A stretch of 64,000 nt of DNA from Daucus carota subsp. sativus (lineage: Eukaryota > Streptophyta > Magnoliopsida > Apiales > Apiaceae), in assembly GCF_001625215.2 (NCBI RefSeq), contig NC_030388.2, positions 21,812,558 through 21,876,557 on the forward strand, written 5' to 3'. The position numbers were made by a program, and so were the translations under genes. The notes under the pieces were generated by a model. It did not search any database, was not told the origin of the DNA, and was given only the letters and a program-made list of their open reading frames with translations. Below are positions 1,855 to 63,891 of the stretch, piece after piece. Within the stretch, counting starts at the first letter, position 1. Every line of letters starts with the position of its first letter.

Positions 1855-3178
1855 ATGGAATCCTCAAGCCAGACTTCAACAATTCCAACAAAACCAGTGG
1901 CCGGAAAACTGAAAACCAGTTTAATTTTCTGGTCAAAGTGGACCGAATTGAACGGAGCCATGGGGGACTTGGGACCAATAATAATGGTCTTAACATTTGC
2001 AAAGGATCTAAATCTTGGCAAAACTCTGGTTTTCACCAGTATTTTCAACATTATAACTGGTGCAATTTACGGCGTTCTCATGCCGGTGCAACCCATGAAA
2101 TCCATTGCTGCAGTGGCCGTTTTCACGCCGGAATTTGGTATTCCGGAAATAATGGCTGCTGAAATTTATATGGCTGCTATTTTGTTTTTATTGGGTGTTG
2201 CTGGCTTGATGTGAGTTGTATACAAGATTATTCCTTTACCTGTTGTCAGGGGTGTTCAACTTGCTCAAGGCCTTTTATTTGCAATGACTGCAGTGGAGTA
2301 TGTTAGAAAGGAGCAAAATTAGCCAAGTCTAAATCTAGTGGGGACTGGGGTGAGGCCTTGGATTGGACTAGACGGGATAATCTTGGCTCTTGTTTGTGCC
2401 TTTTTTTATTATTATTGTTACTGGTGCAGGTGATGAACATGAGGAGGAGATTCAGATTGATAGTCTTGATGATTTGAGTGATATAGAAAGATTTGAGAAG
2501 AGGAGGTTGAGGAAAATCATAGCTTCTCTTCGGCTTTTATAATCTTTCTGTTAGGTGTGATTTTAGCCTTCATAAGAGGGCCTGAAGTAGTTAAAGATAT
2601 TGCATTCTGTCCATCATCTTTGGAGTTAAGTTGTCGAAGCAAGCATGGAGAGATGGATTCATTAAAGGAACAATCCCTCAGCTGCCCTAATTTGTTCTGA
2701 ATTCGGTTATTCCAGTCTGTAAGTTGTCGTCTGATATTTTTCCAAGCAAGGATGTCTCGGTAATATCAGTTTCTATTTCTGTTGGAATGATGAACCTAGT
2801 AGAGTGTTGGTTTGGGGCCATGCCAAGTTGCCATGGCGCAAGGGGCTAGCTGGACAGTACAAGTTTGGTGGGAGGAGTGGAGGCTGTGTAGCACTTCTCG
2901 GCGCTGCTAAGCTGGCTTTGGGATTCTTGTTGAGTGGCTCATTGGTGAAGATTTTGAACCAATTTCCTGTTGGGGTCTTGGGAGTGCTCCTGTTGTTTGC
3001 TGGGATTGAGCTAGCTTTGTGTTGCAGGGACATGAACACTAAAGAAGACTCGTTTGTGATGCTTTTGTGCACTGCAGTTTCGAGTGCTGCAGTCGGATTT
3101 GTTTGTGGTCTAGTAGTGTATTTGCTTCTCAAGTTCAGAAAACTTGGCAAAAATCAACCTCAAAGTTCAGTGCATTAA
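1855..3178 (+). pseudogene. Molybdate transporter (MOT1 family) pseudogene
   Basis: The first 119 codons (1855-2211) read as the N-terminus of a MOT1-type molybdate transporter: ELNGAMGDLGP, then TGAIYGVLMPVQPMKSIAA, the family's signature motifs, followed by hydrophobic helices. A TGA at 2212 interrupts the frame, but the same frame continues with VYKIIPLPVVRGVQLAQG. After that the family sequence hops between frames: shifts near 2320, 2345, 2405 (T-run), 2530 and 2625, a stop near 2690, and another shift near 2865. The last stretch (about 2866-3175) again reads cleanly as LAGQYKFGGRSGG and C-terminal helices. Known members are single-exon membrane proteins of about 450 residues importing molybdate. 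No single reading frame can make this protein. Clustered sequencing indels are the alternative, though neighbouring genes are clean. Confidence 0.88.
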
Positions 3179-3499: not shown

Positions 3500-3778
3500 A
3501 TCCTCTTAGTTTAATATCATTTTTAACGTCGATTTTAGACAATATACAGAGGTTGACACTCCTAAATGTCAATTTTTATTTACTCATGATTATGACCGCA
3601 AATAAAATTGACATTTAATTACTGAAAAAGAATATCAATTTCATCGCATAATAAAAAATATTATTTTCTATATTCTCTTACTTCAGTATCATTTTTAACC
3701 TACATTTTAGGAAGTTGACACTCCTAAATGTCAATTTTTATTTTACTCATAATTATGACCCCAAATAAAATGGACTGG
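3500..3778. repeat. Diverged tandem repeat, about 165-bp period
   Basis: The run AGTTGACACTCCTAAATGTC, followed by an A/T tract and an ATTATGACC(G/C)CAAATAAAAT block, occurs near 3551-3610 and again near 3714-3770. Both copies are preceded by AGT(T/A)T(A/C)... ATCATTTTTAAC. It is a local duplication next to the snoRNA promoter, with no coding potential. Confidence 0.6.
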
Positions 3779-3870
3779 AATACCAATTTTATTTTATTTT
3801 ACAGACGGCGCGGCCCCTGGACCTAATAAACTGGGTTAGTAATCCCACAGAACAAGAACGACAACAAAGC

Positions 3871-3969
3871 TGGGCCTTAGCAGCCCACGAATGGCAGTGA
3901 AACCCCTAAAGATGCAGCCCAAAATCATTGCACGTACTTCTCGAAACCCTAGGAGTTTGACTATAAAAT
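3871..3969 (+). promoter_or_regulatory. snoRNA-cluster promoter: site II elements, telo-box, TATA
   Basis: TGGGCCT at 3871-3877 and an inverted TGGGCT at about 3882-3887 are site II elements. AAACCCTA at 3944-3951 is a telo-box, and TATAAAAT at 3962-3969 is a TATA box. Site II plus telo-box is the known promoter signature of plant ribosomal-protein and snoRNA genes. It sits just upstream of the four C/D RNAs, so I infer one Pol II transcript processed into several snoRNAs. Confidence 0.75.
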
Positions 3970-4075
3970 CAAAGCCATCTTCTTCGTCTCCATATCTCCC
4001 TCTCGTTCTTGTTGTATTTTCCCCAATTTTTTTGCGTCTTTGTGTTTCGTTGTATACAGATGAGTAATAGGTTTT

Positions 4076-4155
4076 GGCCTATGATTAATAATCTTCTAAG
4101 ACAAGCATATGTCTGAATCATCCTATGTTGATCACCTAATCTTCTCTATGAGGCC
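4076..4155 (+). ncRNA. C/D box snoRNA U27-like, guide to 18S rRNA A28
   Basis: A GGCCT/AGGCC terminal stem (4076-4080 with 4151-4155) encloses a C-box-like ATGATTA (4081-4087) and an internal CTGA (4113-4116). The 14 bases before that CTGA, AAGACAAGCATATG, are antisense to CATATGCTTGTCT near the 5' end of 18S rRNA. The fifth base upstream of the box pairs with the A usually numbered 28 in plants, which is the U27 target. The guide is the strong evidence. The C box and the terminal D box (ATGA, 4148-4151) are non-canonical, so the exact ends are less certain. Confidence 0.75.
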
Positions 4156-4217
4156 TTGTTATTTTATATTTTTACGCTTTTTTTTTTGTTTTTTTGTTTA
4201 TTAATGTATTGAAATTG

Positions 4218-4304
4218 AAGAGCCAGTGATGAGATAGTTTATCGTGTAATTGTATGATAAATTCATGATTACATCAATGCTACTGCCTTCCTTCTGAGGC
4301 TCTT
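4218..4304 (+). ncRNA. C/D box snoRNA U16-like, guide to 18S rRNA
   Basis: A seven-base terminal stem (AAGAGCC 4218-4224 with GGCTCTT 4298-4304) brackets C box GTGATGA (4226-4232) and D box CTGA (4294-4297), both canonical. The guide CTGCCTTCCTT directly before the D box is antisense to AAGGAAGGCAG of 18S rRNA. The fifth base points to the A methylated by U16 in animals (A484 in human numbering). It lies about 60 bases after the U27-like RNA in the same orientation. Confidence 0.9.
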
Positions 4305-4353
4305 GATTTTTATATCTTTTTGCTTGTTTTTGTTTAGTAATTCAGATCAAACA

Positions 4354-4444
4354 GGAGTCAAGTGATGATTAAATGCATAGTTCAAATGATTATATATGTG
4401 ATTACACATTTGAAATTAGTCTTTCGCTCCTATCTGATGACTCC
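4354..4444 (+). ncRNA. C/D box snoRNA snoR39BY-like, guide to 25S rRNA
   Basis: Terminal stem GGAGTCA (4354-4360) pairs with TGACTCC (4438-4444). C box GTGATGA is at 4362-4368 and D box CTGA at 4434-4437. The guide TAGTCTTTCGCTCCTAT before the D box is antisense to the ATAGGGGCGAAAGACTA segment of 25S rRNA, with one G-U pair. The fifth position selects a G that corresponds, from memory, to yeast 25S G805, target of snR39b and of plant snoR39BY. The box and stem architecture is textbook. Confidence 0.88.
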
Positions 4445-4814
4445 TTGATTGTTTATTTAATGCCTCTGTTTTTATGATCAAGGAAAGATTTGGGAATTAA
4501 TTGTTATGTACTTGTAATTTTATGAGATCTTGTCTGTTATTTACGTTTATTGTTTATTGTTAAATATTTATATATACTTGTGTAGTAAACAAGCTAAGAC
4601 TCCGATGACGGAGAGACTCTTGAGCTGTTTTGCAGAAGATTAAGTCGAAACAAGAAAATAAAAGTTTATTTTCTGCACACGGATACATAAACATTTAAAA
4701 AATAAGCATGAACAACAGATAAGATCACATAAAATTGCAATTACAGGTCATACAACAATTAATTATTTACGTACTTGATTATTTTTATAAATGTTGTGTT
4801 TTTATTTGCAATCA

Positions 4815-4910
4815 GGGACACTGATGATTGTGATTGGTCTCGTTCGTCATAACGGTGAATTTTCACCTTGCCGACCATCCTGTTATATCACCACCCATAA
4901 ACTGAGTCCC
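4815..4910 (+). ncRNA. C/D box snoRNA U33-like, guide to 18S rRNA
   Basis: Stem GGGAC (4815-4819) pairs with GTCCC (4906-4910). The C box is CTGATGA (4821-4827), one base off the RTGATGA consensus, and the D box is CTGA (4902-4905). The guide CACCACCCATA is antisense to TATGGGTGGTG of 18S rRNA. The rule of five selects the U equivalent to human U1326 (yeast U1269), the U33/snR55 site. An internal run GGTCTCGTTCGT (about 4837-4848) is antisense to ACGAACGAGACC of 18S, close to the U30 site, so it may be a double guide if the degenerate CATA after it works as D'. Confidence 0.85.
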
Positions 4911-5589
4911 ATTCAAATATTATGCTACTTTGTATATTCAAGATGCGTATTTTGCTTCTCTGGCTTCATAGGTACTGCAGTGTAAACTTGAAGATTTTCT
5001 TTATTTTCAAATGAAATTTAGATGACTCTACTGTCTTTGTTTTGATCATTGGTGTTGTGATATGATTGCAGCAATTATGTTGGAGTGTATGCACTTGTTT
5101 CAAGGCTCCACATTTCAGCGTATCTTAATTGAAATTGCCTAACTGGATGAACAGAATATAAAGATATTTGAGCGCATCTTTTTGATATGGTGGACTGGAA
5201 AGAGGATGGACACAAATAAAATTATTAAAATTTTTTTGAAGTGTTTGATTATATATAGGGCGATAAAATTTTAAAAATTAGTCCTTTATTCAAAAAATAA
5301 AAAAAATATAAAAATTAGTTAGAGAGCAATTATTTTTTTTTTTAACTTAAAACATATAATAAATGATATTTTGTTTTAATATACTGTAGTATTTGCAAAA
5401 ATATGGTTGAAATTATTGAAAATAGCAAGGTTCTTAAATTATTCAAATTTTGTTATTAGTATTTTGTTTTTTCAACTCTTTGAAAAATAAATTTTCTAGA
5501 AAATTAAAAATATATTTTACCTTTGTAAAATCTAAATAAGGCTTAGCAGATCGTATTATTACAAATGTCATTTTAACAATTAGAATTTA
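4911..5589 (+). other. Probable 3' part of snoRNA host transcript, then AT-rich spacer
   Basis: I could not find a further C/D RNA or an ORF with homology. Segments ending in TTGCAG near 5070 may be spliced host-RNA introns. From about 5200 onward the DNA is simply AT-rich. Confidence 0.35.
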
Positions 5590-9241: not shown

Positions 9242-9748
<507 letters not shown>

Positions 9749-10252
9749 ATATATATATATATGAAGTCCAAAGATGAGGTCGAAAATGACATTTGAAAAC
9801 TGGAACTTGAAATCAGGAATTGTAGTTGCATATATGGTTGCATATGGTTGTATTCAGTTGCATATGGTTGCATTCAGTTGATTCCATTGTAATCTAATGG
9901 CCCCGCCAGGGCACACCATACATCCGTTGTAACTTACAGTTTTCAGTTGCATTTAGTTGCATATGAGGTTGCATTCAGTTGATTCTATGCAATCTAATGG
10001 CCCCGCCAGGGGCACCCATACATCAGTTGCAACTTACAGTTTTCAGTTGCATTTAGTTGCATATGAGGTTGCATGCAACCTCATATGCAACGGAAAACTG
10101 TAAGTTGCAACTGATGTATGGGTACCCCTGGCGGGGCCATTAAATTACAATTGAGTCAACTGCATACAACCTCATATGCAACCATATATGCAACTGAATT
10201 CCTGATTTCAAGTTTCAGTTTTCAAACGTCATTTTCGACCTCATATTTGGAA

Positions 10253-10299
<47 letters not shown>

Positions 10300-42980: not shown

Positions 42981-44236
42981 GGGTCCTGTTCCCTGACAAC
43001 CGTGTGTCAGGGAACATTTATCCAACCATCACTCTCCCAGCCGTTGGATCAACGATCCAACGGCTGGGATAAAAGAATATGTTTTTAAGGATCCGCGTAT
43101 ATTTTCCGCGGATAGGGTTATTATACGCGGATCTTCCGCGGTTTTTATGCGCGGATAAGGCACAGGGTATCATGGTTTTCATACTTGTTATTACTCCTCC
43201 TTGTAAGCAGAGTCTGGGGAAAAACAAGACAAAAACAGGGAGTGGTGAAGTGGAGCTTGATAATTGAGGTGGATTTCGTGCAACCAGCTAACCTACTTAT
43301 ACTTATAATTATAAATATGAGTTTATATTTATAATTAATATAAATTCATTTTATATTAATATTTATATTTATAAATATTTATAATTATAAGTATGAGTTT
43401 ATATTTATAATTAATATAAATTCATATTTATAATTATAATTAATATTAATTATAAATATGAATTCATATTTTATATTTAAATGTTATAAATATTTATAAT
43501 TATAATTAATGAATATTTATTAATTATATTATAGATATTAATTATAAATATGAATTTATAAAATCTTATAATAATCATGAATATAAATATGAATTTATAT
43601 AATATGTCTTCTCATAAGAAATATGAATTTATATTAATTATAAATATGAATTCATATTTTATATTTAAATGTTATAAATATTTATAATTATAATTAATGA
43701 ATATTTATTAATTATATTATAGATATTAATTATAAATATGAATTTATAAAATCTTATAATAATCATGAATATAAATATGAATTTATAAAATATGTCTTCT
43801 CATAATAAGATTTCTGTAAAAGATATTCTAATATCCAATATATTCATGCTTATTTTGATTACTTTAATTTTAATCTAAAATTTAATATGGAGGGGAAATC
43901 TAACTTGTTTTTGAAAATAAGCAAATAATAAAAAACTGACCAAATTCATATCATAAAAGAAAGTAATTGTGAGCAGGGGATATGTTAGCTGTTTTTGACT
44001 TGCTACAAGGAGTATAACACGAGTATGAAAACCATTATACCCTCTGTCTTATCCGCGCATAAAAACCGCGGATGGTCCGCGTATAATAACCACACAGCAG
44101 TCTATCCGCGGAAAATATACGCGAATCCTTAAAAACATATTCTTTTGTCCCAGCCGTTGGATCGTTGATCCAACGGCTGGGAGAGTGATGGTTGGATAAA
44201 TGTTCCCTGACACACGGTTGTCAGGGAACAGGACCC
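42981..44236. mobile_element. Non-autonomous MULE, 1.26 kb, 9-bp TSD, long foldback TIRs
   Basis: AACTTTTTA flanks the element (42972-42980 and 44237-44245): a 9-bp duplication, the Mutator hallmark. The termini GGGTCCTGTTCCCTGACA and its complement open inverted repeats of about 225 bp (42981-43207 and about 44010-44236), almost identical over the outer 90 bases. The TIRs contain hairpins: TTCCCTGACA/TGTCAGGGAA, a palindrome around CCAGCCGTTGGATC/GATCCAACGGCTGG, and CGCGGAT arms. The centre is AT-rich and carries a 188-bp tandem duplication. There is no transposase. Confidence 0.9.
43430..43805. repeat. 188-bp AT-rich tandem duplication inside the MULE
   Basis: Landmarks GAATTCATATTTTATATT (43460 and 43648) and AATATGTCTTCTCATAA (about 43600 and 43788) recur exactly 188 bases apart, with near-identical sequence between them. 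The duplication arose after or within the element and has hardly diverged. Confidence 0.85.
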
Positions 44237-46364: not shown

Positions 46365-46436
46365 AAGTTACCAGCTCTTAAGAATTAATAAGGTTTTTCA
46401 AAGTAGCAGCTGTGAAATTCCGTATGATATTATAAT

Positions 46437-46853
46437 TAGAGTAAATGACAAAATGGTGGCCGTAGTTTTTCAAATTATACAAGATGTTGACTGGATTTTA
46501 AAAACTACGTAATGGTGGCCGAAGTTTACTTTCGCCTTTTAATAAGGTGGCGGCCGTGAACCTCGGTTAATTATCCTCTGTTAACTTCAAAAAATAAAAG
46601 AATAAACAACAAAGTGGTGGCTGTAGTTTTCCAAATTTAACAAAATGTTGACTGGATTTCCACCACTTTATCGTTTACTCTTTTATTTTTTGGAGTCAAC
46701 GGAGAAAAAATAACGGAGGTTCACGGCAGCCACCTTGTTAAAAGATAACATGACAGAAGTAAACTCCAGCCACCAATATGTAGTTTTTATAGTCCAGCCA
46801 AAATTTTGTAAAATTTGGAAAACTACAACACCACTTCTTTTTATTTACTCTTA
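46437..46853. mobile_element. Foldback MITE, about 417 bp
   Basis: AGAGTAAATGACAAAATGGTGG at the left matches, in reverse complement, the right end (CCACTTCTTTTTATTTACTC). Inner blocks GGTGGC(G/C)GCCGTGAACC / GGTTCACGGCAGCCACC and GTTGACTGGATTT also pair or repeat. It is non-coding and ends 350 bp upstream of the GABA transporter start, so it could affect its promoter. Confidence 0.7.
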
Positions 46854-47207
46854 TAATTATATCAAATCTAAGCTTTATGAAAGGTGATATATCATTATAT
46901 CTTGTACATATTAATAGTAGGCTAGAATTTGATTATTATTCCAAAAATATCAGCCTACATTTACATTGTTAAATCTCAGAGTATCCGCGGGGAGATTATA
47001 GTAATCCACACACAAAAATTTAAATCATTCCGTATTTAATTACTTAAATACGTATCTCATTATTGTATGTATCTATGAGTCTATGATCTATATATATAGC
47101 TAGCTAGTTCTGTATCACAGCGGCAAAACCAAGACCCAACTTTCCTATCTGTATTTGTGTCCGAATTTCAATATATTATGCACACACAAAAAAGAAATTT
47201 TATTTCT

Positions 47208-55035: not shown

Positions 55036-55244
55036 GCTTTTTACAACACTGGGTATACATGATATAAAATGGTGCAAGGATATAAAGGTATAAGCTGCAC
55101 GCAAGTACAAAGGATTTCAGTAAAGGTAGCCATCAACTATGGTTATAATTAATTAAGAGACGACTGGGTTTATCTACTGAAAAAGTAGTAGAAAAAGTAA
55201 CTTACTGATCGATGATCAGAGTAGTGAAGGGTTTGAATTAATTA

Positions 55245-55479
55245 CTCCCTCTAGTCCTTATTATAAGGCACCAAGACTTTTTGCACACATTTTTAGTTGC
55301 TTTGACCACACACTTAAAATTATTTTTTTTTAAATTTTCTTTTTCTGAATTAAAATATATATCACATATTTTAATTCAGAAAAAGAAAAATTTTAAAAAG
55401 ATAATTTTAAGTATGTGGTCAAAGCACCTAGAATTGTGTGCAAAAAGTCTTGGTGCCTTATAATAAGGACTAGAGGGAG
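55245..55479. mobile_element. Stowaway-type MITE, near-perfect hairpin
   Basis: CTCCCTCTAGTCCTTATTAT at the left and its exact complement at the right are flanked by TA. The arms, about 110 bases each, are complementary almost throughout around a short AT loop (near 55355-55365). 235 bp, non-coding. The transcript would form a long hairpin. Confidence 0.85.
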
Positions 55480-55845
55480 TAACATTTTGCTACTTTTAGT
55501 TTGTTCGTTAGACATTACAGCCTTTTGTATCTGCCTTTCATCAATTCTTCAACTATGAGGTAGTTGGCTATAAATCCCCTCTCCTCATCTGAGTTGCCTG
55601 CTATACAAGAAATGTTCTTGTAGCGGTATTAGCTCTGGTTAACAAGTGAATTTTTTTGGTAACATTTAAATGTTTAAATTTTATTAAAAAATGTCAAAAA
55701 GATATTTAATAAATTTAAATTTAAATTTAAATTATTAATTATGTAAATTTAAATTTTACTTATAGTATTGTGTTCGACCATTTAAAGTTGAGTCGAATAT
55801 TTTGTACCGGATGCCCTTCATGAATATGTGGGGAGACAAATGGGT
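55480..55845. other. Spacer
   Basis: No gene or element boundaries seen; AT-rich with AAATTTAAATTTAAATT runs near 55705. Confidence 0.4.
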
Positions 55846-61000: not shown

Positions 61001-63891
61001 TTTTAACACTATTTTATTAGTATTTTAGTATTAATGAATTGGATTTTAGTTAAATTATATTAACCAACTGATTATATCTTCTAACGGAAATTTAGCTTTC
61101 ACAATTTATATTATTCAATTAATTTTAAATCAAAATTTTCATATTTCATATATCTTCATATGTTACGTGATGGTTCGTGTTTGTAACGAAATAGAACACG
61201 TTAGAGTTAAATTTCGAGTAAAATATGTTATAATTAAAAAGTAGCGTCTCTAATTATTTATATGTATTTTAGACAAAAGATATTAAAAATTGTATATTTA
61301 TAATTACTTATACATTTGTCTATAAGTATTTTTTAATATTAATATATGTTATTAACAGTAGTTTCACCTTTTTCAACTAATTATAAATTATATTTAATAA
61401 GATATTAATATACATAAGGAGTGTTTTTAGTATATAAAACTGTTTAATAGATATCTGCATGTTGTAGACTTTTAGTTTTATAGGAGAGTACCAAACCAAA
61501 ATTTTGTACGACTACAAATTATACTCATGTTGGCTTTTTATAGTATAGTATAGATTTATCCGTCAGTAAGAATTCAATTCAACAAGTTTGGCACAAGAAA
61601 ATTGATTTAAGATTCAATGTTCAAAATCAAATAGAACTGGCATCAGTGGATTCAGTCATTTGTATTGCGTGAAGCATTCCATTTCTACATGTGGCAGCAA
61701 TGATAGAGGTTTTACTCAAGATACTTAGCTAGGTAGTTAATACTTCGTGATTAGTATTTATTATTTGGAATTATTTTCACTTATATATGTGTTGCCAAAA
61801 ATCTTGATCAGTTAAAAATAAAATCTAGAAGTTTAAGTTCCTATTGCTCATGAAAATTCTTGCAATGTAAGATTTTAAAATAATTGAAGCTTTCAGACTT
61901 TGTTTTCCATTTTTATTCCTATTTAATTTATAATCTGTCTTATTTTGTTTTTGCTCTAGACTCGATATGATTATGATAATAATAATGTAGATAAGTATAT
62001 GTGTTTTCATCTATTTTTTTAATTATTGTTGAATTACTATATGTGATTTAGTTTTGTTTGTGACTTGATATTTGTTAATAGGTAATAATATAATGTAAGC
62101 TTATATTTTTTTATAATGCTTATTCAAATAATAATGACCTTTTATTTGTTTAAAAGAATTCATACACATGTATTATTATACATTCTTCTGGCTTAAGTAA
62201 CTTGAAAATCATATCATCTTAACTATCTAACTTCACACCTAATTAACTGGACCCTAGCTTATATAGGTTTCTTCAATATGGCTAATCTGTCTCTCTTTTA
62301 AGGTTTTTTTTTTTTTTTGAAAGTATCTTTTAAGGTTTTTAATCTCCCCAAAACCGAACTCGTCAATTTTTATTTTGAGGCATTTTCTTAAGATTTGTAA
62401 CTGCGTGTTTATCTCTAATATTGTTAATGTTTTTCCTTGATTTGAATGGTAAAATCTAGTCTTTTATATTTGATCATTTAGGTTGTAGACATGCTTGTAA
62501 TAATGTAATTCCTTGTTGCCGAACAATTAATAGCTTGGAAGCATGCTTAAAATTTTTAAAGCCCTATGGCTATCTCTTGGATCCCAGAAGCTCAATGATA
62601 TATGATGTGTAACTTCCTGAGAGAGATTTGCAGGTTTGGGAATTTGATCTTGATCATCAGAGATGGCTTCCAGTTGCTGAATTAGCTCTGGCTAATGACA
62701 AGGGTGATCCAGTTTACACAGTTTCTTGGGCACCGAATATTGGCAGGTAGGACCATTTACAGTTTACAATATAATCCACTAATCATACAATTACTTCCTG
62801 AAGACATCAAACACGGCCTGTACTTAAATTTTAGGTTTTTGAAATCATTTTGGATTCACACTTGACATATATCTTATCTTTCCCAACCCAATCAGCACAT
62901 TATGGCCCTGTTTGGGAATTAGCGGTTAGCTGTTAGCGGATTGAATTAGATGTTTTGACTAGCTGATTTAAATAGATGTTTTGACTAGCGGATTGAATTA
63001 GCGGTTTCTTGTAAAACTGTTTGATAAATAGCTGTTTGATGAGCTTTTTGTGACACATACCCAAACCGCTAACCCAAAAAGCTCCTCAAACTAGCTTTTT
63101 AAAAATTAGCTTTTTGAGCCCAAACCTCTATTTCAATCCGCTAACTACCAAACACTAACATTAGCGGATTGAAATGGTCAAACCTCTAAAACACCCAAAA
63201 CCTCTAATTTTACCCCAAACCTCTAACTTCCAAACACCCCCTATATCTGTTACTGTTACTGCTGCTTATTTGTTTTTCCAAATAGAAGAAAACAAACATT
63301 CAAAAAAATTTCCTGTAAATATGTAAGACTGAAATTGAATAATTTCTGAACAGGCCGTATGAGATTGTAGCTACCGCCACCAACAAGGGTATTGCAATAT
63401 GGCATATTGGCGTGGACGCTAATCAGGTGGGAAGGCTCTCAGTGGAGAAAGTAGCACTATTGTCTGGTCATGAGGGCGGGGTATGCATTCTATTTTCTGC
63501 CAGTATACTAGTAGTAAAAAAGCTGCAGGGTTTGAGGAAAAAAGTACCTAATTGGTATGCAGAGTGCATGTCGTTAAGAGGCATGAACAATATATTTTGT
63601 TTATTCTAAATAAACAATGCTATAACATGGTTTAACATTCCTTTTGTTCCTTCTAAGTGGAATGTTCCTCAAGTTTTTTGTTTTTATTTGGAGAGTTATT
63701 GTATGTTTTTTGGCTGGGTATCAAGCTGAGATTTTAACAATCAACTTAATTTTGTTTAGGCATGGCAGATGGAGTGGGATATGAGTGGGATGACACTAGC
63801 AACTACCGGGGATGATGGAAGGGTTAGGTTGTGGCAGTCCAATTTAAATGGAGTTTGGCATGAACAGGCTGCTATTCAACCCACCACTTAG
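58019..63891 (+). CDS. SEH1: Nucleoporin SEH1 (WD40), 326 aa
   Basis: Eight exons: 58019-58177, 58580-58691, 59052-59158, 59651-59728, 59935-60087, 62634-62746, 63354-63480 and 63760-63891. They join to 326 codons plus stop, the length of Arabidopsis SEH1. WD40 blades are recognisable: SAWNYCGQRFATGSVNGTL, VKVVWVPPEYGDAVACIFSD, YSDGLVKVFELPDPLDLKNW, VSWAPNIG, and the final TLATTGDDGRVRLWQSN. SEH1 belongs to the Nup107-160 outer-ring complex of nuclear pores and is also part of the GATOR2/SEA complex. Intron 5 (2.5 kb) contains a Helitron, and intron 6 a MITE. The first 13 bases of the stop-proximal exon and the GGC-GGG exon-7 end keep the frame, giving HEGGAWQMEWD, close to the usual HEGEVWQMEW. 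Confidence 0.95.
60935..61554 (-). mobile_element. Non-autonomous Helitron in SEH1 intron 5
   Basis: On the minus strand it begins A|TCTATACTATACTATAAAA (TC at 61554-61553) and ends with hairpin CCCGTGC-TTT-GCACGGG (60946-60962), seven bases, CTAG (60935-60938), then T. A-to-T insertion without target duplication, 5' TC and 3' hairpin plus CTRR are the Helitron rules, all met. 620 bp, AT-rich, without Rep or helicase. Confidence 0.88.
62904..63241. mobile_element. hAT-like MITE in SEH1 intron 6
   Basis: GGCCCTGTTTGGGAATTAGC at the left and, in reverse complement, GGGGGTGTTTGGAAGTTAGA at the right are imperfect inverted ends. Interior words TTAGCGGATTGAA and TTCAATCCGCTAA are inverted copies. 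It is non-coding. Confidence 0.75.

Follow-up and report, generated by a model that had tools for sequence, protein, structure and literature searches.

A carrot locus that resembles plant polycistronic box C/D snoRNA genes, with reassigned candidate guides and an intervening foldback

A short run of box C/D small nucleolar RNAs (snoRNAs) in the carrot genome (Daucus carota subsp. sativus) raises the question of which RNAs it holds, which ribosomal RNA (rRNA) positions they could guide, and whether they form one gene. The run lies in a 64,000-nucleotide stretch (NC_030388.2, positions 21,812,558 to 21,876,557; hereafter the window) on contig C8 of the 441-Mb genome. An earlier note had read it as U27, U16, snoR39BY and U33-like RNAs in one orientation behind a telo-box/Site II promoter; its names came without separate coordinates and were matched to the RNAs by order. 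Judged by its sequence, the locus looks like a plant polycistronic box C/D snoRNA gene of known kind, presumably read as a single transcript (Table 1).

Table 1. Features of the snoRNA locus, in window coordinates
Feature	Position	Strand	Basis
Promoter	3871..3967	+	Pattern scan; counterpart motifs in related cluster
Site II elements	TGGGCC 3871; AGCCCA 3882 and 3916	+	Pattern scan
Telo box AAACCCTA	3944-3951	+	Pattern scan
TATA box TATAAA	3962-3967	+	Pattern scan
U27 C/D snoRNA	4076..4155	+	Rfam SNORD27 36.4 bits (relaxed), related copy, guide pairing
snoU83-type C/D snoRNA	4221..4301	+	Rfam snoU83 55.9 bits (cutoff 50)
U80-type C/D snoRNA	4353..4445	+	Rfam snosnR60_Z15 81.7 bits; 8-bp stem
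Foldback (hairpin)	4495..4764	+	RNA folding; between third and fourth snoRNA
SnoR32-type C/D snoRNA	4816..4909	+	Rfam snoZ43 94.7 bits; guides

Across the whole 64 kb, Rfam profiles gave three matches at gathering score, all of them within the cluster and on the + strand. Together with a relaxed-threshold search of positions 3700-5300, this yielded four C/D RNAs in a common orientation within 834 nt, each with C and D boxes and a terminal stem, so the clustering described earlier holds. The remaining relaxed matches were weaker than SNORD27, and many were other C/D families at the same places.

The promoter is supported as well. Upstream of the RNAs, a stretch of 97 bp holds three Site II elements, one telo box and one TATA box, and motifs of the same kinds stand in the same order ahead of a related cluster at C8:2.529 Mb, with 18 nt from telo box to TATA box here versus 19 nt there. 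Promoters of this TeloSII type are known for Arabidopsis snoRNA and ribosomal-protein genes (PMC4660826). The related cluster also carries a U27 copy that was aligned with the one described here, and its spacers between RNAs are shorter than 50 nt. It is headed by the H/ACA snoRNA snoR100 (L007 2652-2551, - strand, 67.8 bits), a family that Rfam did not report within the 64-kb window. It is very unlikely, in our judgement, that the cluster studied here is a decayed duplicate making little or no RNA while the related one does the work.

To assign the four RNAs, guide pairings were placed on assumed 18S, 25S and U6 sequence. U27 (C box ATGATTA 4081-4087, D' box CTGA 4113-4116, D box ATGA 4148-4151, stem GGCC/GGCC) pairs through its D' guide with 18S A28 over 13 bp, and through its D guide (4136-4147) with the ACAGAGA region of U6 small nuclear RNA over 12 bp. 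18S A28 and U6 A43 are the published U27 sites (PMC8053127, Tables 1 and 3). The two guides, the SNORD27 match and the related copy thus bear out the name U27; the second guide, to U6, is an addition to the earlier reading, as is the foldback.

In the case of the second RNA, a strict scan found the C box GTGATGA (4226-4232), the D box CTGA (4294-4297) and a 7-bp stem. Its D guide (4283-4293) pairs over 11 bp with 18S A424 (AAGGA*AGG), 5 nt from the box, as would be expected of U83; no D' target was found among the rRNA and U6 pieces tested. We take human 18S A468, the U83 D-guide site, to be the equivalent of Arabidopsis A424, and the counterparts in yeast (A420) and human (A468) are presumably methylated. 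The Arabidopsis RiboMeth-seq table (PMC8053127) has 35 entries for 18S, and A424 itself is not one of them. If the U83-type RNA is functional, carrot would methylate A424, which Arabidopsis seems not to do. As a separate candidate target we considered 25S U2922, a snR52 site in yeast for which Arabidopsis has no guide; comparison with assumed rRNA by eye, without a script, gave no match.

The third RNA carries both U80 guides, the D guide directed at 25S G917 and the D' guide at 25S A826. These sites lie 91 nt apart, and the pairings with 25S extend over 11 bp and over 18 bp plus one GU pair; the D guide also pairs with locus L011 (18 bp plus one GU pair). The fourth RNA points to 18S U1266 and A1330, at a spacing of 64 nt, and the U1266 placement recurs in the same letter context in locus L009. 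These two positions are the ones that the Arabidopsis table (PMC8053127) assigns to SnoR32.

These placements do not agree with the names given earlier to the last three RNAs, which would guide 18S A440 (U16), 25S G814 (snoR39BY) and 18S U1273 (U33). The target neighbourhoods are shared in part, A440 being 16 nt from A424 and U1273 lying 7 nt downstream of U1266. However, the positions themselves differ, as do G917 and A826 from G814, and we consider it extremely improbable that the earlier names are correct.

Several observations weigh against the assignments proposed here. The assumed rRNA and U6 pieces had been picked to contain the expected sites, and weaker, GU-rich guide matches also occurred at unexpected places. 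In a control with 5.2 kb of random sequence, 8 of 100 random guides scored at least 11, and for the shorter guides the length of the pairing by itself therefore carries little weight. L009-L011 yielded none of the U27, U83 and U80 D' sites, so support for these guides comes from assumed rRNA; L011 itself had no Rfam match at gathering score. In the case of U27, SNORD27 falls below the Rfam cutoff of 52 in both copies (36.4 bits here, 43.5 bits in the related cluster), and the U6 target is A42 on the assumed sequence versus A43 as published. Altogether, the corrected candidate sites for this species would be 18S A28, A424, U1266 and A1330, 25S A826 and G917, and U6 A43. A424 could show whether a methylation site of yeast and human, with no entry in the Arabidopsis table, is in use in a plant; apart from it, the cluster is routine annotation.

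The foldback between the third and fourth RNAs has a minimum free energy (MFE) of -82.3 kcal/mol (z -8.2 versus shuffles). A miniature inverted-repeat transposable element (MITE) would be expected in many copies with common ends and a target-site duplication; the flanks of the foldback have in common only the palindrome AATTAATT. No Rfam match above cutoff lies within it. No copy was found in 192,559 other bases, a comparison that excluded L026 and L027 (from C10 and C11, both small contigs) as well as short loci overlapping the cluster. An H/ACA snoRNA was considered and rejected, as the folds 4586-4700, 4590-4632 and 4640-4696 looked by eye like simple hairpins in which no two-sided pocket stood out clearly. 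The foldback might instead be a functional microRNA (miRNA) precursor co-transcribed with the snoRNAs, for which the Arabidopsis sno-miR775 and sno-miR779 genes give a precedent (PMC4660826). Consistent with this are the z value, 21-nt windows starting at 4513-4518 in which each side has a single unpaired base, and a genome search, skipping common words, that reported no second copy. Yet foldbacks are frequent in the window (about eight places including this one, several of them stronger), and the related cluster, with its short spacers, has no match to it. A precursor role therefore appears unlikely. Less likely still, and offered as speculation, is the combined reading in which an unreported miRNA precursor sits in the four-snoRNA transcript, under a growth-regulated promoter common to both, and carrot, through the U83-type RNA, still methylates 18S A424, a site lost in Arabidopsis. 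If true, ribosome-modification guides and a silencing RNA would stand under one growth-regulated promoter.

Elsewhere in the window, strong long foldbacks occur at 9748-10270, 46425-46864 and 55242-55482; RNA folding of the 301-nt windows at 9901, 46501 and 55201 gave MFE values between -142 and -184 kcal/mol. Directly upstream of the cluster, two + strand frames, 1855-2214 and 2804-3178, have matches to the molybdate transporter family MFS_MOT1 of Pfam. The 301-nt window 43401-43701 is very AT-rich (about 7% G+C). An inverted-repeat element at 62986-63143 recurs close to one end of contig C2 (L029:2218-2369) with 87% identity, suggesting a MITE-like family. In the genome as a whole, contigs C10 (250,368 bases) and C11 (127,500 bases) have sizes that might suit a mitochondrial and a plastid genome, in which case nine chromosomes would remain.

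Among known systems, the closest clusters are U32.2-U27.2-U80.2 of Arabidopsis (Brown 2001, as given in PMC5122169) and the U27-U80b cluster 43 of rice. With plant TeloSII polycistronic snoRNA genes (PMC4660826) the locus has in common Site II elements, telo box and TATA box 5' of several snoRNAs in the same orientation; all features compared agree, the single transcript being presumed here. Like the dicistronic sno-miR775 and sno-miR779 genes of that source, it has a hairpin inside a presumed snoRNA transcript with a TeloSII promoter. Unlike in those genes, where the hairpin follows the snoRNAs, the hairpin here, at most a candidate precursor, precedes the last one.
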